Virus record (IMG/VR): IMGVR_UViG_3300028920_000034
Coordinates: 89,115 to 153,114 of that record
Origin: a virus
Direction: 5' to 3' (one strand)
Length of the DNA: 64,000 nucleotides
This document shows, in pieces, positions 4,669-58,616 of this stretch. Under the pieces are notes generated by a model. That model was not told where the DNA came from. It saw only the letters and a list, made by a program, of their open reading frames with translations, and searched no databases. A program made the position numbers and the translations under genes. Positions within the stretch are counted from its first letter, which is position 1, and every line of letters begins with the position of its first letter.

Positions 4669-6168
4669 CTACGGGGTGTTGTCCACCTCGAGGGCGCCGT
4701 AGAAGTTGCTGTTCATCAGCTTCGTGGCGTACCGGGTCCGGAGCCCCTTGCGCGCCTGGAAGTTGCCCGGATCCAGCCAGGTGCTGGTGATCTGGAGCCC
4801 CACGTAGGGGGCGTAGGCGTAACCGCTGTCGAGGAAGGTGCTCCCCTTGAGCCCGACCACAGCCTTGCCAGACTCGAAGTACGGATCCACGATCACGCGC
4901 CAGCGGTTCTGGAGCGTGCCGGCCTCGAAGATCCCGTAGCCCTGGGGGGCGTTCGGGAGCGGGAAGCCGGGGCGCCCGCCTGTGCCGATCCCCTGGATGG
5001 GGTCGGTCTGGGAGAACACGCCCTTGAAGTCGCCGTGGCGGCTCAGGGCCGAGATCACCGTGGACACGTCGGGCGCGCACACGATGAAGTTGCCCGGACC
5101 GCGCTTGGTGCGGGTGTGGATCTCCGTGGCGATCTTGTCCAGCTTGGTGAGGATCCCGGAGTAGTGCTCCACCGGGCTCCGGCCGGGGGGCACCGTCGCG
5201 TCGAAGGTCTCCTTGTTGGTGCCGGCGTCCGCCGCCACGTACAGGTCCTGGATGATCTCGCGGTCGATCTCCAGCCCGATCTCGCTGGCCAGGCCGCCCA
5301 CCAGCTCGGACTCAATGTCCAAGCCCAGCATGGCCCGCATGTCGTCGGCCGCCTCGGAGCTCCACAGCGCCTTGAGCTTCCGGCTCCACGCCTGGACGGG
5401 CTCGAGGGAGATCTCGACGTTCACCTCGGGCACGTTGGCCGACGCCGCCTCCATGGAGAACCAGTAGTTGGCGTAGATGGGGGTGAGGTTCTTCACGTTC
5501 GCGGAGAACGTGATGTTGAAGTCGCCGCTGGCGTAGGTGACCGTGGACGCGGCGCCCGTGTCACCGGCCAGGGTGCCGGATCCGTCCGCATCGTAGATCC
5601 GGAGCACGTTGTCGGACACGTCCACCGTGGTGAACTCGAGGCCCGCGCGGCCGAAGTTGTCCTTCGGCACCACCGGGAACCAGTCCAGGGTCCCGGTGTA
5701 GTTGGCCGTGGATCCGTCTCCGGTGTCCACCAGCTCGTGGTACACGCGCTCCGAGCTGTAGAACCGGTCGAAGTTTTGGATCATGTTCTGACCCGCGGTG
5801 ACCGATCCCTTGCTGGTGCCGTACTTGTACTCGAAGAAGAAGATCCCGCCGATGGGCGCGCTCATCGGCTGGACGCTCACCAGGCCGTTGGCGAACAGGC
5901 TCGCCCACACGCGGCGGACCAGCGGGAAGATGAACTTCACGTAGTCCGGCACGGCCGCCTTGGTGGTGGCCTCGCTGATGATCCCGGACTTCCGCACCTC
6001 GTCGCGGAGGTGGTTCATCTGGTTCTCGAAGAGGCGCGCCAGGTTGCGCCGATCCCAGTCCTCATCGATCCCGTCGAGGAGCCACGCCCACTTCTGCTTG
6101 AGGATCTCGTCCACCCGGTCCTGGCCTCCGAAGCCGCCCGGGGCCTTCACCATGTCTCTTGCCTGCAT
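4669..6168 (-). CDS. Major capsid protein, T4 gp23-like
   Basis: 499 residues, about the usual size for this HK97-fold family. The N-arm (about 21-66, KWAWLLDGIDE, LARLFENQ) ends in I-S-E|A at 64-67, matching the gp21-type site; T4 gp23 is cut after Glu65. VQPMSAP-x-G-G-IFFFE at 99-113 is the family signature. Residues 125-240 form an insertion domain (FDRFYSSERVYHE, DYxxG beta repeats). ELVGGLASEIGLEIDREI at about 285-302 is the conserved spine helix motif. The C-terminal part has YAPYVGLQ and DPGNFQARKGLRTRYA, also typical. Segments similar to 21-88, 98-115 and 128-240 recur in three small genes at 37-47 kb. Confidence 0.93.
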   Translation of the reverse strand: MQARDMVKAPGGFGGQDRVDEILKQKWAWLLDGIDEDWDRRNLARLFENQMNHLRDEVRKSGIISEATTKAAVPDYVKFIFPLVRRVWASLFANGLVSVQPMSAPIGGIFFFEYKYGTSKGSVTAGQNMIQNFDRFYSSERVYHELVDTGDGSTANYTGTLDWFPVVPKDNFGRAGLEFTTVDVSDNVLRIYDADGSGTLAGDTGAASTVTYASGDFNITFSANVKNLTPIYANYWFSMEAASANVPEVNVEISLEPVQAWSRKLKALWSSEAADDMRAMLGLDIESELVGGLASEIGLEIDREIIQDLYVAADAGTNKETFDATVPPGRSPVEHYSGILTKLDKIATEIHTRTKRGPGNFIVCAPDVSTVISALSRHGDFKGVFSQTDPIQGIGTGGRPGFPLPNAPQGYGIFEAGTLQNRWRVIVDPYFESGKAVVGLKGSTFLDSGYAYAPYVGLQITSTWLDPGNFQARKGLRTRYATKLMNSNFYGALEVDNTP

Positions 6169-6229: not shown

Positions 6230-7798
6230 CTAGTAGGGCCCCTTGTCGTCGTCGCGTCCTTCGGACAGGCCGCAGAGCTTCCGGAGCTCTTTCTGGCCCA
6301 CGCCGAACAGATCGTAGCCGTCCTCGGTGAGGGGCACCTGGCCGCCGCCACCCTCCGGCATGTGCATGGCGCCCGTGAACCCCTCGGTGAAGTCCTGCGG
6401 GTCCTCGTCCCCCTCGGTGAGGTGGGACAGGCCGCCGCCGAACTCGGACGAGATCTGATCGAACTCGTCCGACAAGGGATTGGCCGCCTCGAAGGATTCG
6501 ATCAGCCGGTCCACGGCACGCTTGCCCTCCAGGCGCACGTTCTCCGCTTGCTCGCGGATGGCGCTGGCCTGGGGATGGGCGTTCAGGCGCTGCTCGAGGT
6601 ACGCCTTGGTGCCCAGGGCCTTGCCGAGCTCCACGGACTTGCCCAGGGCCCGGCGGAGCTTCTCGTTCTCGGCCTTCATGGCCGCGAGCTCCGCGTTCTC
6701 CTCCTCCTGGCGCGTGGTCTCGGTGAGCACCGACTCCACCGTGCTGGCGAGGGCCTCCTTGAACTCTTCGATGGACCCGAAACGGGACAGGTCCCCGAGC
6801 ATCCCGAGGATGTGCTCCTTCGTGTCCACTTCCTCGAGCGTGCCCAGTGCGCGCTCGGCGTAGTAGCGACAGGAGAGCTCCTCGGTGATGCCCACCAGCT
6901 CCTCCACGGCCGCCTCGAGCTGGGAGATCTGCTCCTGAGCCTCCTCGAGCTTGGCCCGGGTGTCAGCCAGCTCCTCGTCCTTGTTCTCCAGGACGGCGTG
7001 CTGGTCCTCGGTGAGCATCAGGGGCCGGAGGAGCTTGATCACTCCCTCGAGGGCGAGCCGCGAGCCGCCCACGGACGGGTCGCTCAGGAGCTCGCTCCGC
7101 ACCTGGTTCTCCACCTCCGCGCGCTGCTCCTGCACCATGGACAGGAGCTTCTCACGCATGTCCTCGGTGTCGGGCGCCGCCGGGGCCGGCTCCACGCCTG
7201 CCACGGCCTCTGCCTGGATCATCTGCACCAGCTCGGGGTGCGTTTCCTTCAGTTGCTCGAGGGTGAGGGGCATGTTCTCCTCCGGATCGTCGGCCTCGGT
7301 GGTGAACTTCGGCCAAGACGTAGCGTTCGCCGGGTCCGCCACGGCGTCAAAGGACAGGAGCCGATAGTCGTCTTGAACCTCGCTCATGCCCTGTTGGTTC
7401 TTGCGGGTGGTCCCCACGCCACGGCTGGAGACGCCCACAACGCCTCCGCTTTCGATGATGGACTTCAGGATGCGCCCGTTGGGGGTGTCGAGCACTCGCA
7501 TCTCCCCGATGACGTTGGTGCCATCGAAGGTCAGTTTGGTGATCAGGTGAGACGCTTCCTTGAGCGTGGTCTTGCCGTCCTGTGGGTGGTCCAGGAGTCC
7601 GAACAAGCTGCTCGTCTTGATCTTGTCCTGGAGCCGGGACAGCTCACGCTCCCAGAGCTTGCCGGAGTACACCCGGCCGTTGGCCGTTGGCACTCCTGCC
7701 CGGGCAAAGGGCCCGCGGGCTACCATGCCCCCGGAGCCCTCCCGGTCCTCCACCAGCTCGAATCGGAATAGCTGGCAGTCTGTGAGTACCTGGTCCAC
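6230..7798 (-). CDS. Prohead protease fused to coiled-coil scaffold (gp21-gp22 type)
   Basis: 522 residues from a GTG start with GGAGG five bases upstream. Residues 1-165 are a serine-type prohead protease of the T4 gp21 (S77) class: NGRVYSGKLWERE, a His in LLDHPQDG (about 71), Ser in GVVGVSSRGVG (about 123), and an Asp in LLSFDAVADP. Residues about 225-470 are Glu-rich coiled coil, as in the gp22 core scaffold. The tail carries likely self-cleavage sites (L-T-E|G, L-S-E|G). T4 encodes these as separate genes. The protease should process the MCP and the many proteins with L-x-E|A sites in this window. Confidence 0.85.
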   Translation of the reverse strand: MDQVLTDCQLFRFELVEDREGSGGMVARGPFARAGVPTANGRVYSGKLWERELSRLQDKIKTSSLFGLLDHPQDGKTTLKEASHLITKLTFDGTNVIGEMRVLDTPNGRILKSIIESGGVVGVSSRGVGTTRKNQQGMSEVQDDYRLLSFDAVADPANATSWPKFTTEADDPEENMPLTLEQLKETHPELVQMIQAEAVAGVEPAPAAPDTEDMREKLLSMVQEQRAEVENQVRSELLSDPSVGGSRLALEGVIKLLRPLMLTEDQHAVLENKDEELADTRAKLEEAQEQISQLEAAVEELVGITEELSCRYYAERALGTLEEVDTKEHILGMLGDLSRFGSIEEFKEALASTVESVLTETTRQEEENAELAAMKAENEKLRRALGKSVELGKALGTKAYLEQRLNAHPQASAIREQAENVRLEGKRAVDRLIESFEAANPLSDEFDQISSEFGGGLSHLTEGDEDPQDFTEGFTGAMHMPEGGGGQVPLTEDGYDLFGVGQKELRKLCGLSEGRDDDKGPY

Positions 7799-37274: not shown

Positions 37275-37676
37275 TCATCCCTTCATGTTCGGGTCTCGTC
37301 TCAGGCACTTGAGGCACTGATTCGTCATTGGATCTACCGACTTGACCGCATGACACCGGATGCAGTCCTCCCAGGCTTCTGGCTCCCCATGCTCGTAGAA
37401 GAACACGCCGTCCGCCGGGGCCGTCATCGGTTGGATGGTGAAGCACTCCCGGATGATCTTGCTGGTGGGGGACTCCCAGGTGGGGTCCGCCACGCTGTGG
37501 AGTGTCCCTTCGGCCCCACAGCTCGGACACTGCTGTCCGCCAGGCTCCCACCTGGCCACGGGTGGGTCTCCCTCCACCACGGCCGGATTGGCCAGGAAGC
37601 ACGCCCGGCACATGCCGTTCAAGGGCTTCCCTCGCATGGACTCGAGGAGCTCCTGGACTCGGTTGTCACGCTCCAT
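37275..37676 (-). CDS. Zinc-ribbon protein carrying an MCP-like segment (MCP 98-115)
   Basis: 133 residues. Residues 81-96, IQPMTAPADGVFFYEH, match the MCP signature VQPMSAPIGGIFFFEY (MCP 99-114). Four cysteine pairs surround the segment: CRAC (23-26), CPSC (50-53), CIRC (105-108) and CLKC (121-124). The QPM-[ST]-x-P-x-G pattern is a hallmark of gp23-type capsid proteins. It lies among overlapping small genes, far from the capsid operon. It could be a decoy for a host sensor, an assembly modulator, or debris of an MCP duplication. Confidence 0.65.
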   Translation of the reverse strand: MERDNRVQELLESMRGKPLNGMCRACFLANPAVVEGDPPVARWEPGGQQCPSCGAEGTLHSVADPTWESPTSKIIRECFTIQPMTAPADGVFFYEHGEPEAWEDCIRCHAVKSVDPMTNQCLKCLRRDPNMKG

Positions 37677-38109: not shown

Positions 38110-38447
38110 TAAACCGGCTCCCTTCCGGCTTCGCCCGCCATCGGGTCTGGCCACTTCTGGCTGCTCACGTGTCCGCAGTCATCGCACCTGGTGATCACCG
38201 TGCCACCCAGGTAGGCGTTCCCCTTGCGCTTGGGCATCGCCACCCCGGTGGTGGTGTTCTTGCTCCCGCACGCATCGCAGGAGACCGGCTCGCTGGCGCT
38301 GTAGGTGGGCTCCTGGGGTGGCTCCTGTTCGAACATCCGATTGCGCTCGTAGCACTCCCGGCAGACGGACAGGAGCCGCCCGGTGGTCTCGCCCTTCATC
38401 ACGGGGTTGTCGCAGTCCGTGAACGCGCACTTCGGTCGGTTGCTCAT
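38109..38447 (-). CDS. Double zinc-ribbon protein
   Basis: 112 residues. Pairs at C7/C12, CREC (about 29-32), CDAC (about 58-61) and CDDC (about 88-91) would form two ribbons. The second half has the order of TFIIS-like ribbons (NAYLGGTVITRCDDCGH). Overlaps the MCP-like gene upstream by ATGA. Confidence 0.55.
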   Translation of the reverse strand: MSNRPKCAFTDCDNPVMKGETTGRLLSVCRECYERNRMFEQEPPQEPTYSASEPVSCDACGSKNTTTGVAMPKRKGNAYLGGTVITRCDDCGHVSSQKWPDPMAGEAGREPV

Positions 38448-38902
38448 GGCAGCTCTCCCGGCGCCCCGCACCCGGGGCACCCGTTGACGTTGGGCAGGTA
38501 GGCGCGCCCGCAGTAGCCGCACGCCACGGCCGCCGGCCCGCGCTCGCCGGTCTCCTTGCCCATCGGCTCCACACCCACGGCCAGCATGTTCATGCAGTAG
38601 TCCGCCAGGAGCTGTGCCCCCGGGGCCGCGTTCTTGGCCAGCACCACGGACACCTGACCGCTCTGGTAGTCCACCGTACACCTGCCCCCGGCGTCCCCGT
38701 GGAGCTCGCCGTTGCCATCGGTGTCCTCGAGGCGCATCTTGCCGCGCTTACCCTTGATCGTGAGCACCAGCGTCTTGGGCACCACGGGCGTCCAGGTGAG
38801 CACCCCTTCCAGGTGAGCTTGCTTCTTGCCGGCTATGGCCACCGCCTCCTGGTAGACGTGCTCACTCGAGTAGTACCGGTCAAAAGACTGGATCAGGTTC
38901 AT
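38444..38902 (-). CDS. Stand-alone MCP insertion-domain homologue with C-terminal zinc ribbon
   Basis: 152 residues. Residues 3-107 align along their length with MCP residues 129-240: LIQSFDRYYSSEHVYQE against MIQNFDRFYSSERVYHE, then TWTPVVPK against DWFPVVPK, DTDGNGELHGD against DADGSGTLAGD, and YQSGQVSV against YASGDFNI. Residues 128-146 add CGYCGRAYLPNVNGCPGC, a ribbon absent from the MCP. The start overlaps its neighbour (ATGA). It is thus an isolated capsid domain expressed as a small protein. Options are a capsid decoration protein, an assembly regulator, or a decoy of the MCP. Confidence 0.8.
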   Translation of the reverse strand: MNLIQSFDRYYSSEHVYQEAVAIAGKKQAHLEGVLTWTPVVPKTLVLTIKGKRGKMRLEDTDGNGELHGDAGGRCTVDYQSGQVSVVLAKNAAPGAQLLADYCMNMLAVGVEPMGKETGERGPAAVACGYCGRAYLPNVNGCPGCGAPGELP

Positions 38903-46911: not shown

Positions 46912-47095
46912 GGGGCTTGCCCTCCTCAATCATCCGGATCACCCGCGCCAGCCGAGCCACTGCCCGGTCGAAAGCCATGGGCTCCGCCAGCCGCTCGCGG
47001 TCCACCTGGAGCCCCCACGCCTTGAGGGCCCGCGGAATGCTCTCCTTGAGCCGCTCCTCACGCTCCTGGGCTGTTGGCATCCGCTCAACTCGCAT
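46904..47095 (-). CDS. Small helical basic protein
   Basis: 63 residues if the ATG at 47095 is used; a second ATG at 47080, four bases after the upstream stop, is also possible. Arginine-rich helices (REERLKESIPRALKAWGLQV; DRAVARLARVIRMIEEG). Function unknown. Confidence 0.5.
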   Translation of the reverse strand: MRVERMPTAQEREERLKESIPRALKAWGLQVDRERLAEPMAFDRAVARLARVIRMIEEGKPHE

Positions 47096-47507
47096 CAGGA
47101 AACACCTTGTGGACAAGCGGGAAAATGAACTTGGTGTACTTCTCCACGTCGTCTGGATCGATACCTTTGCGAGCATGATCCTTGACCGATTCCTTGAGCC
47201 TCCTGGATTCAAGCTCAAATAGCCTGGCCAAGATAAGCGCCCTGTCGTCCACTCCCTCCACCATCCATGCCCACTTTTTCAGCGTATTCTCGGGCGATCC
47301 ATAGTTGTCTCTGCATACCTCACAGTCGGGATCATTGCAGATCGGGAGCAAGCTCATGTGAAGATCCGACAACGCACAGCACGCATCGCAGTCTTCGTTG
47401 CCAACCTCTATCCCGTCTTCCACGTAACAGGTGTGCTTGAGCCTGGCTTCAATGCCGCGCCTGATCTCAGCAAACCTGACTTCATCGTAGCTGCTCGGGT
47501 GACTCAT
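47085..47507 (-). CDS. MCP N-arm homologue fused to cysteine-rich N-terminus
   Basis: 140 residues. Residues 77-134 match MCP 26-86: KKWAWMVEGVDD with LARLFELE against QKWAWLLDGIDE with LARLFENQ, then YTKFIFPLVHKVF against YVKFIFPLVRRVW. The gp21-type cleavage site of the MCP (I-S-E|A) is replaced by GIDPDDVE, so the arm should not be processed. Residues 1-70 carry cysteines (CYVE, CDACC, CNDPDCEVC), probably zinc-binding. The segment corresponds to the MCP propeptide and the first part of the mature protein. Confidence 0.75.
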   Translation of the reverse strand: MSHPSSYDEVRFAEIRRGIEARLKHTCYVEDGIEVGNEDCDACCALSDLHMSLLPICNDPDCEVCRDNYGSPENTLKKWAWMVEGVDDRALILARLFELESRRLKESVKDHARKGIDPDDVEKYTKFIFPLVHKVFPDAS

Positions 47508-48371: not shown

Positions 48372-48683
48372 TCACCCTCCAGATAGCCCGTGGCGCGGCC
48401 GGCACGCCCAGATAGCCGGCCTGGCGTCCACCGGGCCTCGCCCGCGGCGCAACGGCTCCACGTGCGGAGCCAGGGGCACCAAGTCCCACACGGGTGGCCG
48501 TGGTGGCGGTAGACATGGCTCTGGGTCTGGCACCGAGGAGCCGCTCGAGCTCACGTGGAACACCACCGTTCGGTCGCTGGTGGCGTTGGGCGGATCTCCC
48601 GCCCACGTGTAGCTCACCATCTGGTAGCCGTTGGGGCACGTGGGGCTCGAGTCCACGGTCCGGCTGGGGGGTAGAGCTGCCAT
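48372..48683 (-). CDS. Hypothetical Pro-rich protein
   Basis: 103 residues. The ATG overlaps the phosphoribosyltransferase stop (TGATG), which supports this frame over the alternatives. N-terminal half beta-like (GYQMVSYTWAGDPPNATSDR), C-terminal half Pro/Arg-rich. No family recognised. Confidence 0.4.
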   Translation of the reverse strand: MAALPPSRTVDSSPTCPNGYQMVSYTWAGDPPNATSDRTVVFHVSSSGSSVPDPEPCLPPPRPPVWDLVPLAPHVEPLRRGRGPVDARPAIWACRPRHGLSGG

Positions 48684-49321
48684 CAGACGTAGAACACCGC
48701 GCCCCGTCGAGACGCGCCTTTGTCCGGGCGATAGTGGGCCACAGTGGCGCCGAAGATCGGCCCGCGGTATCCGGCCTGGTGGAGCACCTCCGCCGCAGCT
48801 CGCAGCGTGGCGCCGCTGGTGAACACGTCGTCAACGATCAGCACTCCCGCCGCCTCCGGCACTCCCTTCACGGCCATGGTCCTCACGTGCTCCTGGTAAC
48901 CCGTCCCGGCATTCACGCCCCCGGCCCGGCGCCGCATCCGACTGGACTGCACGGCCACGGCACGCTCCACCAGGTCCACCGCGCGCTTGCCCGCGCCCGC
49001 GCGCACAAGCGCGTTGGCCAACACCATGTTGCTCGGGCGCCCGGACGCGCTTCGTGGAGCTGCCGTCACCACGCCCTTGAAGCCCTTGAGCCCAGGGTGC
49101 CGAGCGAGGGCCTCCGCCCCGGCGCGGATCGCCGCCTGGTCCCCGGCCTTGAGCCGTTCGATCAAGTCTTGGGTGGCATCCGTCTCCGGCGATGCGCCCC
49201 GGTGCTTTGTCCGGCTCAGGTACAGCATGGCGGAGTACACCGGGAACCGACCCATGCCCTTCCCGGACAGTGACTTCCGAAGCTCCTCGAGGAGCACCTG
49301 TAGGCGTGCTGTCATGGTCAT
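48683..49321 (-). CDS. Phosphoribosyltransferase-fold protein (ComF-like)
   Basis: 212 residues. VLIVDDVFTSGATLRAAAEV at about 160-180 is the PRPP-binding loop of type I phosphoribosyltransferases. VVTAAPRSASGRPSNM is the preceding loop. The N-terminus (LQVLLEELRKSLSGKG) resembles the block's targeting helix but has no clear L-x-E|A site. Phage phosphoribosyltransferases usually act in nucleotide or NAD salvage; ComF-like members are linked to DNA uptake. Substrate unknown. Confidence 0.7.
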   Translation of the reverse strand: MTMTARLQVLLEELRKSLSGKGMGRFPVYSAMLYLSRTKHRGASPETDATQDLIERLKAGDQAAIRAGAEALARHPGLKGFKGVVTAAPRSASGRPSNMVLANALVRAGAGKRAVDLVERAVAVQSSRMRRRAGGVNAGTGYQEHVRTMAVKGVPEAAGVLIVDDVFTSGATLRAAAEVLHQAGYRGPIFGATVAHYRPDKGASRRGAVFYV

Positions 49322-49347
49322 GGGCAAATCCTACCATCCGAGCCATC

Positions 49348-50649
49348 CTAGTCACCACCCATCTCCTCGAGCGCAAGGTCTGCAAATAGGGGACCGAATA
49401 CACCGGCGATCCGACGCCTGGCAGTATCCGCCCACTTCGGATCCAGCTCCACACCCACGAAGCGCCTGGACAAAGCCACCGCCGCCGCACCAGTAGTCCC
49501 CGAGCCACAATACGGGTCCAGCACCACGTCTCCCTTCCTGGAGCCGATGGTGATCAGGTACTGCATGAGCTTGGTAGGCTTGACAGTCGGGTGCTGATTG
49601 TCACCCACGCCCCGGTTCTTCTCCCGCTTGGACGGCTTGGGCACCAGGAGCCATGGAAACGTCCGGCGCACCCTCTCCGGGAGCTCGGCCATGGCCTTGG
49701 CGTGCCATGCGTCCAAGTCGAAGTAGCGAGACGCCGAACCGGCGTCTCTTGCATACTCACGCTGCATCTTCCCAGCCTTCCCATAGATGTTTCCATCGTT
49801 AAACCCATGGTAGCTGCCGCTCATTTTTCCGCTCTTGCAAATCCTCCCATCATCCAACGCATCGTCCTCTACCAGCACGTTGGCGGGGAAGCGGCCACCG
49901 CCGGGGCAACTACTTCCGTGGTCCACGTCCTGAAATCCGCCGCCGTGGTAAATGTTGCCGTCACCTATTTCGCGCCTATGTGTCCAGTGACTCCCTTTGG
50001 TACTGCCGGTAATCGGTATCCGCCCATCGTCCAGCCACGTACACCCCTTCCCATTGTTGAGCGCCTGGTCGAGATAGGTCTTTTGCGCCAGCGGCTTCAT
50101 GACCACGATCACCGGCTCGACCGCAGGCTTGGGCTGGAAGCCTCCATAGGCACCGTCCAATGCCTTCGCCTCTGGTGTCGATGGCTCCGTTACATTCGGA
50201 GACATTGAAGCACTGTTCCATCGAGCATGATGCTCCGCGTTCTTCCCAGGGTCACGAAAGTTTGGGTTCCTTCCAACAACCTCCCTTTCCGCCCCCGCTC
50301 GCTTGTCGGCTGCCTTGCTAAGGTTCTGCGCCTTTGGAAACCCGCTGGCGTACACCCAGTAGATCGACGTGAACCCAGCCTCGAAACCTGCCTCACCAAG
50401 CCGAACGATCATCTGGGCCATGCAGTCCTGGCGCGGGGTGCAAAGGATGAAACCGAACGCCCCTGGCTTCATCACCCGGAGGCACTCGCGCCATGCGTCC
50501 ACCGGAGGCACCGCGCGGTCCCAGTCGCGGTTCATGAACTTGAGACCGTATGGGGGGTCGCAACACAGCACGTCCACGCACTCGTCCGGGAGCTCGGCCA
50601 GTCGCTCCTGGCAGTCCCCCGTGAGGATTGTCACCCTGTCCAGTTTCAT
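49348..50649 (-). CDS. DNA methyltransferase, DPPY class (beta-type N4/N6)
   Basis: 433 residues. CCDPPYGLKFMNRDWD at about 30-45 holds the catalytic DPPY, and DPYCGSGTTGAAAVALSRRF at about 380 the AdoMet-binding FxGxG-like motif, so the catalytic motif precedes the AdoMet motif (beta class). TVKPTKLMQYL is also typical. The centre (about 150-290) is a target-recognition domain. It probably methylates adenine (N6) or cytosine (N4) to protect phage DNA from host restriction. No cognate endonuclease is nearby. Confidence 0.85.
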   Translation of the reverse strand: MKLDRVTILTGDCQERLAELPDECVDVLCCDPPYGLKFMNRDWDRAVPPVDAWRECLRVMKPGAFGFILCTPRQDCMAQMIVRLGEAGFEAGFTSIYWVYASGFPKAQNLSKAADKRAGAEREVVGRNPNFRDPGKNAEHHARWNSASMSPNVTEPSTPEAKALDGAYGGFQPKPAVEPVIVVMKPLAQKTYLDQALNNGKGCTWLDDGRIPITGSTKGSHWTHRREIGDGNIYHGGGFQDVDHGSSCPGGGRFPANVLVEDDALDDGRICKSGKMSGSYHGFNDGNIYGKAGKMQREYARDAGSASRYFDLDAWHAKAMAELPERVRRTFPWLLVPKPSKREKNRGVGDNQHPTVKPTKLMQYLITIGSRKGDVVLDPYCGSGTTGAAAVALSRRFVGVELDPKWADTARRRIAGVFGPLFADLALEEMGGD

Positions 50650-50930
50650 CGCCCGCGCTCTGCCTCCACCCGGGCCGCCCCGAGGAGCCCGTAGCCGGCA
50701 ATGTCCCGCCAGGGGGACTCGCCCAGGGCGTCCCTGTCCGTGGCGATCCGGAACAGCTTGTCCACCACCCGCGTCACCGCCAGGGCATCATCCATCTGGT
50801 CCGGGGCAATACCGTCCGGATACAGGGTACGCATCACCTGGCCGCTTCGCCCGAACGCATCGCCGTAGGCCGCCTGCTTCTCGGTGACCAGCCGGCCGAT
50901 CTCGCGGCCCAGTTTTTCAAAGTCTGCCAT
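50646..50930 (-). CDS. Conserved phage protein, DUF1599/Nmad-like
   Basis: 94 residues. KQAAYGDAFGRSGQVMRTLY, then YDDALAVTRV-like and DKLFRIATDRDALGESPWRD with IAGYGLLGA, matching a common phage family related to nucleotide-modification-associated domains. The gene overlaps the methyltransferase start (ATGA), so a shared role in DNA or nucleotide modification is likely. Confidence 0.6.
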   Translation of the reverse strand: MADFEKLGREIGRLVTEKQAAYGDAFGRSGQVMRTLYPDGIAPDQMDDALAVTRVVDKLFRIATDRDALGESPWRDIAGYGLLGAARVEAERGR

Positions 50931-51005: not shown

Positions 51006-51218
51006 TCAGTGCGCGCTGTCATAGGGCACGCTGTCATGGGCCGCCTGGTACGTCCGGCACCAGTCGAGCACCTCGTCTTCGGCCACCGGCCAGGAGACCC
51101 CACAGCAATTCCACCAGATGCTGCACCCCTCGAGGGCATCGTTCATGTCCTCGTTCCGGTCGCATGTGGCGCGAGCTCGCTGTGGAGCTCTCCCGCACCG
51201 CCAACAGGTCGCACTCAT
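51006..51218 (-). CDS. Small zinc-binding protein
   Basis: 70 residues. CWRCGRAP at 5-12, then C33 and WWNCCGVSW at about 36-44 form a zinc site. The C-terminus is acidic. The ATG at 51218 follows the upstream stop by 7 bp. Confidence 0.5.
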   Translation of the reverse strand: MSATCWRCGRAPQRARATCDRNEDMNDALEGCSIWWNCCGVSWPVAEDEVLDWCRTYQAAHDSVPYDSAH

Positions 51219-54520: not shown

Positions 54521-55725
54521 CAGAACGTCGGCAAAGCCCCGCCAAGCCGGGGACGGGGGTGCCCACACTCCTCCTTGCGGAACTGAATGCTGGCCTCCTC
54601 CACCTCGAAGGGGTTGCCATGGGCGATGTACGCCACGTCTGTCACCAGAGTGAGGTGGAGCTGCCCGTTGCCGGTCCGGAGCCGTTCGATGTTGGCCTTG
54701 GCGCCCCAGTACCAGGACGCGGGGCCACCGTTCTCGCGCCGGAGCTCCGCGCACACCGGGCGCTCCTCTTGGATCGCCCTGTCCAGCATGGCGCCCACGT
54801 CGGGAAGGTTCTCGCTGTCACGCGCCGCCACGGTCACGGCCACATGGTCGGGCTTTCCGTCCAGGCCCACCCGGTACTCCACCTTGGCCAGCGCCGGGCT
54901 CCACGCAAAGGGACCCACCTGGAACCGCCAGTTGCGCTTCACATCCTCCGCCGCAACCGTCGCAGCCCAGCCGCCCTTGATCCCGCGCACGTCCGCCACG
55001 GGGTTGAGGGCCGTAATGAATTCGGGACGGTCCACCCGCTTCATGTACTTCTGATCCAGGTCCGCTCCCACCAGATCCTTTGGAATGCCCAACGCGCCCA
55101 CCAGCTCACGGTCCAGATCGCGCGCCACCTGGCCCGCCATAGCGTCCATGATGGTCTTCTCTGCCGAGCCGCCGAACACATCGGTGAACTCCTCGAAGGA
55201 TTCGATCAGCCGTGCCCCCGGCCGGGTGAAGCTGCCGCGCTTGTTCTTGGCTTCCGCACGGAGCTTGAGCTCGCGTTCGATCTGGTCCTTGAAGCGGTCC
55301 AGATGCTCGGGCGCGATCACCTCGCGTTCGATGGCCTGGCGCACCATCTTGTCCACCGCACGCTCGAAGGCGTCCACCAGATCGATCACCATGGGCGCCG
55401 GCACCACGATGGTGTCCGCGGTCACACCTGGCGCCCCGCGGCGCTTGTCACCGTCCAGCTCGCTGGCAATGGTCCCCAGGCACCACTTGTCCCCGATGCC
55501 CAGGTAGTCGTCCAGGTTGATGATGTTGGATAGCACCCGCGTGGGCATCCGCACCGTGTTGTTGTAGTACCCCTGGTTATGGTACTTGCGCTGGGCGTGT
55601 TTGTACGCCTCCTTTGCGATCTTCGCCTTGTGGCGCGCATCGTCCATATCCCACCCGGCCGCCTCCATGGCGTCCAGCACCTGGACCGCCCTGTGAAGCA
55701 CACTCTCTTCGTGTTTTCCGCTCAT
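54520..55725 (-). CDS. Large hypothetical protein with weak MCP-like helix
   Basis: 401 residues. Helical N-terminus and centre, a beta-rich C-terminal half (RNWRFQVGPFAWSPALAKVE; HVAVTVAARDSENLPD). AMAGQVARDLDRELVGALGI at about 195 resembles the MCP spine GLASEIGLEIDREIIQDL (only a local match). No family recognised. It may be another protein borrowing an MCP motif, or the match may be chance. ATGA overlap with its neighbour. Confidence 0.5.
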   Translation of the reverse strand: MSGKHEESVLHRAVQVLDAMEAAGWDMDDARHKAKIAKEAYKHAQRKYHNQGYYNNTVRMPTRVLSNIINLDDYLGIGDKWCLGTIASELDGDKRRGAPGVTADTIVVPAPMVIDLVDAFERAVDKMVRQAIEREVIAPEHLDRFKDQIERELKLRAEAKNKRGSFTRPGARLIESFEEFTDVFGGSAEKTIMDAMAGQVARDLDRELVGALGIPKDLVGADLDQKYMKRVDRPEFITALNPVADVRGIKGGWAATVAAEDVKRNWRFQVGPFAWSPALAKVEYRVGLDGKPDHVAVTVAARDSENLPDVGAMLDRAIQEERPVCAELRRENGGPASWYWGAKANIERLRTGNGQLHLTLVTDVAYIAHGNPFEVEEASIQFRKEECGHPRPRLGGALPTF

Positions 55726-57420: not shown

Positions 57421-57687
57421 TCACGTCACACCTCGCCCAGCCCACAACACGAAGCGGAGGCGCCCCTCTGTACGCGCCTGGAGCTCGTGAAACTGGGTTT
57501 TCGATAGATGGATCCCGCCGTACCCGCACCCCTCCTCGCCCGACCAGAACACGCAGTAGTAGCCGCTGGTCTCCGGCATGTAGTTGTACCGCACCAGATC
57601 GATCACCGGGTGCTCCTCGAGGAGCCGCAGTACATCCTCCACGCACATCAGCCGCAAGTAGCCGTTGGAGGTTCGCTTGGTAGTCAT
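57421..57687 (-). CDS. Hypothetical protein
   Basis: 88 residues. Helix (VEDVLRLLEEHPVIDLVRYN), then beta strands (GYYCVFWSGEEGCGYGGIHL) and a helix. A compact alpha/beta protein. No family recognised. Confidence 0.5.
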   Translation of the reverse strand: MTTKRTSNGYLRLMCVEDVLRLLEEHPVIDLVRYNYMPETSGYYCVFWSGEEGCGYGGIHLSKTQFHELQARTEGRLRFVLWAGRGVT

Positions 57688-57699
57688 GCCGAGATTGTA

Positions 57700-58053
57700 T
57701 CACCAGCGCCCCCCGCGGTATTGCACCTCTGGACCCCAGCACGCGCGGTCCTCCCAGAGCTTGTCATCGGGGTGTAAGTGGGCCTTGGAGTCCACGATAG
57801 TGATCTGCACGTTGCCGTCCGGTGGCGTCCCCAGCACAGGGTGAGGCACCAGGCCATCGATCTGGAACGTGTACCGCTCCAAGATCTTGCCCGGGTCACC
57901 ACCGATCTCCTCCGCCAGGTGCAACAGAATCTGCCGCAGACCAGCTTGCAGGTGCCCCTCGGTGGCCTTCGTGGCCGGGTGTCCCTCCTGTACCCATCGC
58001 TCGAGTCCGGCCATCACCCGTCGCTCGAATTCCTGTGCTATCCAGGCGTGCAT
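57700..58053 (-). CDS. Hypothetical alpha/beta protein
   Basis: 117 residues. Helices (AQEFERRVMAGLERWVQEGH; HLQAGLRQILLHLAEEIGGD), then strands (ERYTFQIDGLVPHP; NVQITIVDSKAHLHPDDKLW). The TAATG overlap with the previous gene supports the start. No family recognised. Confidence 0.5.
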   Translation of the reverse strand: MHAWIAQEFERRVMAGLERWVQEGHPATKATEGHLQAGLRQILLHLAEEIGGDPGKILERYTFQIDGLVPHPVLGTPPDGNVQITIVDSKAHLHPDDKLWEDRACWGPEVQYRGGRW

Positions 58054-58616
58054 TACCCGGCCCTCCTCGCCGCCTTGATCTTCGCCAGGTAGCCCTGGCA
58101 GATCGTCGCCAGGAGCTCCCCGTGGAACTCCTCGCCCACCTCGCGCTTGGCCTTGTTCATCGCCCTGGTGAGCACCCGCCGCTGGCGTCCATCCATCCAG
58201 AATGCCACCGTCTTGGGCGCCGCCTCCACAGGCTCCCCGTAGACGCGAGCTCGCAGCTCCGCCACGGTGTGCTCCCGCGCCCACCGCAACCAATGGTCCG
58301 CACCCTCACGATGCGGCCCCATCCGGGCCAGGAGCACCGCCTTGCACCGCCCTAGCCGAGCCAGGGTCTCGCGCTGGGCCTTCAGGAGCCGCTGGTCACT
58401 GGCCCACCTGGCGATGGCCATCAGCTCGTAGGTGACCCCGGCCGTGAGGCCCACCTCGTTCTCCGCATAGTCCGCCCAGGTGTCCCAACCCCACTCATAG
58501 TGGAACTGGCCACCGCGGATCGCCAGGAGCACCTCCCCGAGCCGCATCAGCTCACCGTGGGCATTGCCGGCCAGGCTTCTCACCAGCCGTCTCAGATCAG
58601 CTTTCGTCTGTTCCAT
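58053..58616 (-). CDS. Helical DNA-binding-like protein
   Basis: 187 residues from ATG 58616, which has GGGAG upstream. Residues 40-90 (WGWDTWADYAENEVGLTAGV, TYELMAIARWASDQRL) have a helix-turn-helix pattern seen in phage and plasmid proteins of the 'W-x-x-Y-x-x-E-x-G-L/L-s' type. The rest is arginine-rich and helical. Possibly a regulator. Confidence 0.5.
   Translation of the reverse strand: MEQTKADLRRLVRSLAGNAHGELMRLGEVLLAIRGGQFHYEWGWDTWADYAENEVGLTAGVTYELMAIARWASDQRLLKAQRETLARLGRCKAVLLARMGPHREGADHWLRWAREHTVAELRARVYGEPVEAAPKTVAFWMDGRQRRVLTRAMNKAKREVGEEFHGELLATICQGYLAKIKAARRAG

Follow-up and report, generated by a model that had tools for sequence, protein, structure and literature searches.

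Gene A and its capsid-type arm

The window analysed here is the whole 64,000-nucleotide stretch of DNA taken from a virus record of 153,114 bases, and all positions are those of the window unless another handle is given. It holds a small gene, gene A, part of which is homologous to the N-terminal arm of the major capsid protein (MCP).

47085–47507, minus strand: gene A, a 140-aa ORF with a Cys-rich N-terminal part followed by an MCP N-arm homologue
47313–47429, minus strand: Cys-rich, metal-binding-like stretch of gene A (C27, C40, C43, C44, C57, C62, C65)
47100–47279, minus strand: MCP N-arm homologous part of gene A (residues 77–136, corresponding to MCP 25–88)
47187–47198, minus strand: LKE|S, a gp21-type cleavage consensus in gene A (residues 104–107)
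4669–6168, minus strand: MCP of the gp23 family (Pfam Gp23, 4.6e-69), with the predicted processing site ISE|A

Gene A shares an ATGA overlap with the upstream gene and an 11-nt overlap with the downstream gene. What is the evidence that it carries a capsid arm? Over residues 77–136 it is 39% identical to MCP 25–88 (E = 7e-9, tblastn within the window). An arm profile built from 30 related MCPs, with gene A left out, matches it at E = 2e-12, N-arm motifs included, and a full-length MCP profile lacking the window's own MCP matches it at E = 9e-10. By alignment, the arm corresponds to about residues 7–107 of T4 gp23. The propeptide of T4 gp23 is 65 residues long (PMC9026906), so the stretch comprises the propeptide and the first mature residues. 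Both the capsid N-arm homology of this ORF and its extent had been proposed in a preliminary description, and both are borne out. Conservation of individual arm residues, which that description had proposed as a check, gives a mixed picture: set against 11 MCP arms, gene A has retained K78, W79, E84, G85, A94, E98, P130 and V135 and has lost the near-invariant N99 (of the FENx motif), R133 and L139.

Gene A stops near MCP residue ~90, the HK97-fold capsid core that follows the arm is absent, and there is no match to Pfam Gp23. It resembles the propeptide and N-arm of T4 gp23 in the positions of the KW, EG, FE, P and V motifs and differs from gp23 in having no capsid core behind the arm and a Cys-rich part in front of it. 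T4 also has a second MCP-related gene, encoding the vertex paralogue gp24 (E = 5e-19 to gp23, blastp), but gp24 is a full-length capsomer whereas gene A has the arm only. A structure model of gene A, built from an alignment that includes MCP rows, has helices at residues 90–113 and 118–135 (block pLDDT 61–87), and a fold search with this model gave no PDB match. The N-terminal part has seven cysteines, including two CxxC motifs; a search of it against Pfam and NCBIfam found no domain, and from its sequence it is possibly a metal-binding piece.

The preliminary description called the arm a copy, which is misleading. The GC content of gene A is 53%, against 65% for the window, and in a tree of arms it falls outside the clade of its own MCP, with a branch length of 2.6 changes per site, too long for the source lineage to be placed. 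A sister genome is available for comparison, in a record of 153,540 bases that is co-linear with this one, mostly at 82%–95% DNA identity, and has an MCP 99% identical. It lacks gene A, and the gap coincides exactly with the limits of the gene and has junctions of the ATGA type. Hence, low GC, the long branch and absence from the sister indicate a diverged homologue rather than a fresh copy. The sequence suggests that gene A is probably a laterally acquired, single-gene accessory cassette, although loss in the sister is a possible alternative to gain here. With a flanking gene as bait for alternative versions of the site, the sister genome was the sole match.

Gene A is known in one copy only. 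No relatives were found in viral_contigs, among 50,697 phage records, or in genome_contigs, the last searched with an arm alignment based on a single peptide pattern. Isolated arms or insertion domains were also not found, with matches in 51 loci all being long MCP frames or frames cut by a contig end. An arm profile run against 20 further phage records (several are partial; the sister genome and Rhodothermus phage RM378 are among them) found no isolated arm, only MCPs and one spurious match (G013, E = 0.002), where the ORF overlaps other frames and a wider profile gives no support. A literature search found nothing relevant on captured capsid fragments in phages.

A cleavage motif and the prohead protease

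T4 gp21 cleaves after L/I-x-E (PMC9026906). The preliminary description held that the processing site of the MCP is replaced in gene A and that the arm is uncleavable. The first claim stands in part: when gene A is aligned to its own MCP, ISE|A has no counterpart, yet LKE|S at residues 104–107 fits the L/I-x-E consensus expected of gp21 substrates. The second is not supported, and depends on comparing gene A with its own MCP only. The motif [LIFM]-x-E-[ASGTNED], sought between the FENx and FP(L/I) motifs, is present in all 48 parsed MCP arms (a set that includes some duplicates of one contig), starting 7 to 18 residues past the start of FENx. In the window's MCP, ISE|A lies at 17 residues; in gene A, LKE|S lies at 7 residues past the start of FE(N/L)x, a spacing shared with 13 of the 48 arms. 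Similar motifs occur by chance in 12% of shuffled sequences, so LKE|S is no proof that gene A is cleaved. The genome does encode a protease of the gp21 family.

6230–7798, minus strand: prohead protease (gp21/Peptidase S77; Pfam 5.7e-20, PHROG 207 1.2e-50)

The C-terminal part of this protease, of more than 300 residues, has no convincing Pfam domain and is maybe a fused scaffold.

Other capsid pieces in an accessory region

Gene A lies in a region, 34–57 kb, where small CxxC proteins abound (6.0 CxxC per 1000 aa, vs 0.8 below 31 kb) and gene-sized differences from the sister genome are numerous. Two further genes here are relevant.

38444–38902, minus strand: gene C, a homologue of MCP 128–242 with a C-terminal zinc-ribbon-like tail
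37275–37676, minus strand: gene B, a CxxC-rich protein with the motif FTIQPMTAPADGVFFYEH, like MCP 96–114 (weak, post hoc)

Gene C matches MCP 128–242 at E = 8e-18 with phmmer and 5e-21 with a profile. The match takes in the insertion domain together with the strand that precedes it, and the C-terminus of the protein has a zinc-ribbon-like CxxC pair. Like gene A, gene C is absent from the sister genome, again with a gap that fits the gene exactly and with ATGA-type junctions. Among annotated phage records, the MCP of Streptococcus phage vB_SagM-GXN1 matches it best (E = 1e-4). A structure model of gene C, based on an MCP alignment, had the phage P1 head as its best PDB match, which was rejected at only E = 0.014 and TM 0.39. 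The domain alone also occurs in other virion-type proteins; the first ~13 residues of gene C match MCPs only. The domain is a beta domain from the insertion region of the MCP (MCP 142–239; gene C 38444–38902) and recurs in other virion-type proteins both in this phage and in related phages.

G000 54536–55570 and 57439–58428 (L005, L006): virion-type proteins with this beta domain

Gene B is a weaker case. Its similarity to MCP 96–114 has E = 0.08 with phmmer and 7e-4 with a profile of a segment picked after the fact, so its sequence is only suggestive of an MCP piece, at about 104–130 of T4 gp23 by alignment. Gene B is kept in the sister genome, with dN 0.02 vs dS 0.24. The MCP segments of genes A, B and C do not overlap and together take up a span of about 220 residues; when three segments of this kind are placed at random in the MCP, the same is seen in 0.2% of trials, a post hoc figure that counts the weak gene B. 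It looks like capsid parts are reused outside the capsid, with one other small gene (C) clearly, and a third (B) possibly, carrying an MCP piece.

The surroundings have other features of note. Phosphoribosyltransferase-like and DNA methylase genes occupy a stretch, 48683–50665, for which the sister genome, in the parts compared, has no matching DNA. A repeated element of ~75 bases consists of TTGGCACGnnnnTTGCTTCT, like a sigma-54 −24/−12 promoter, followed by a conserved hairpin-like leader. It has 12 copies in the genome and occurs in the sister genome too; one copy, at 51006 on the minus strand, is immediately upstream of an ATG at 50930.

Window 23457 (plus strand), 51006 (minus), 14525 (minus), 2939 (plus, one mismatch): copies of the element
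L003 15781 (plus), 1753 (minus); L004 5020 (plus); L005 4733 (plus), 12580 (plus): copies of the element
L006 2393 (plus), 10704 (plus); L007 12418 (minus): copies of the element

Possible roles of the capsid-type arm

What might gene A do? The preferred explanation, to which we give a probability of roughly 0.4, is that its product is an accessory protein that docks at the prohead core by means of a captured arm, and that it may be processed at LKE|S. The propeptide and N-arm would have been taken long ago from a gp23-type MCP and fused behind the Cys-rich part. The arm would still fold as helices and dock where MCP arms do, at the prohead core, a neighbouring MCP or the protease, which would let the protein join the prohead or modulate it, perhaps with cleavage at LKE|S in that setting. 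Other MCP parts would have been reused in parallel by gene C and possibly gene B. This reading is suggested by the arm profile match, the eight retained residues and the predicted helices; by the position of LKE|S together with a Peptidase S77 in the genome; by the exact insertion of the gene with coupled start and stop codons; and by gene C as a second clear MCP part in an accessory gene. There is also precedent in T4, where propeptides known as capsid targeting sequences (CTS) bring proteins to the core, and gp21 cuts these propeptides at L/I-x-E (PMC9026906). The internal proteins IPI–III and Alt, which enter the head in this way, resemble gene A: they too are non-capsid proteins that combine a propeptide-like part with an L/I-x-E site (PMC9026906), and the effect of the arm would be comparable. 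However, a CTS is an N-terminal peptide of 10–19 residues, whereas gene A has a C-terminal MCP arm and so lacks the N-terminal targeting peptide of such cargo. The docking reading is also weakened by the three lost residues, by the frequency of LKE|S-like motifs in shuffled sequences, by the MCP rows in the model alignment and the lack of a PDB match, and by the single known copy. Another small T4 protein, the gp21 inhibitor Inh, acts on the prohead protease, a role that an arm mimic could have; as an MCP-derived precedent it was rejected, since Inh has no sequence similarity to gp23.

There are several alternatives to docking. It is possible, if rather unlikely, that gene A is a neutral by-product of illegitimate recombination between a foreign MCP fragment and a small Cys-rich gene, leaving the arm without a job. 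The fast turnover of the region, its wealth of small CxxC proteins, the low GC of gene A and its absence from the sister and from the 50,697 phage records would all fit. The arm consensus has nevertheless been retained over a very long branch, and a second clear MCP-fragment gene lies nearby, whereas fragments of other structural proteins were not found in the region 34–57 kb by phmmer, with which MCP pieces are easier to detect. Rapidly turning over accessory genes are also typical of conflict with hosts or competitors, and it is conceivable, though improbable, that MCP fragments act in trans as decoys that occupy MCP partners. On the host side, the target could be a capsid-protein sensor of the Lit/Gol-EF-Tu or CapRel type; in co-infecting phages, it could be head assembly. 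Host sensing of MCPs has precedent (PMC9712102, PMC3014915), and the possible gene B motif belongs to the same first quarter of gp23 as Gol. On the other hand, in the known cases it is the MCP or a piece of it that sets the sensor off, so making such a piece might hurt the phage; the host of this phage has no known sensor; and a dominant-negative arm could also damage the phage's own head.

The preliminary description offered a further reading, in which a non-cleavable arm would delay or regulate how the phage's own MCP assembles. While the missing counterpart of ISE|A is in its favor, the presence of LKE|S and the strong divergence from the own MCP make it very improbable. In a broader sense, a regulatory or mimic role is possible from the sequence. 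It is doubtful, but conceivable, that small Cys-rich proteins are maintained in the lineage as a set, each built on its own, non-overlapping MCP segment (~25–88, 96–114 and 128–242), and act in trans on capsid assembly or on capsid-sensing host defences.

What are the implications? Genes with MCP fragments can occur away from the structural cluster, and surveys that use the MCP as a marker gene could misread them. If the fragments work, pieces of the capsid would be serving again as stand-alone accessory proteins, and their links to head maturation or to capsid-sensing defences could be tested.
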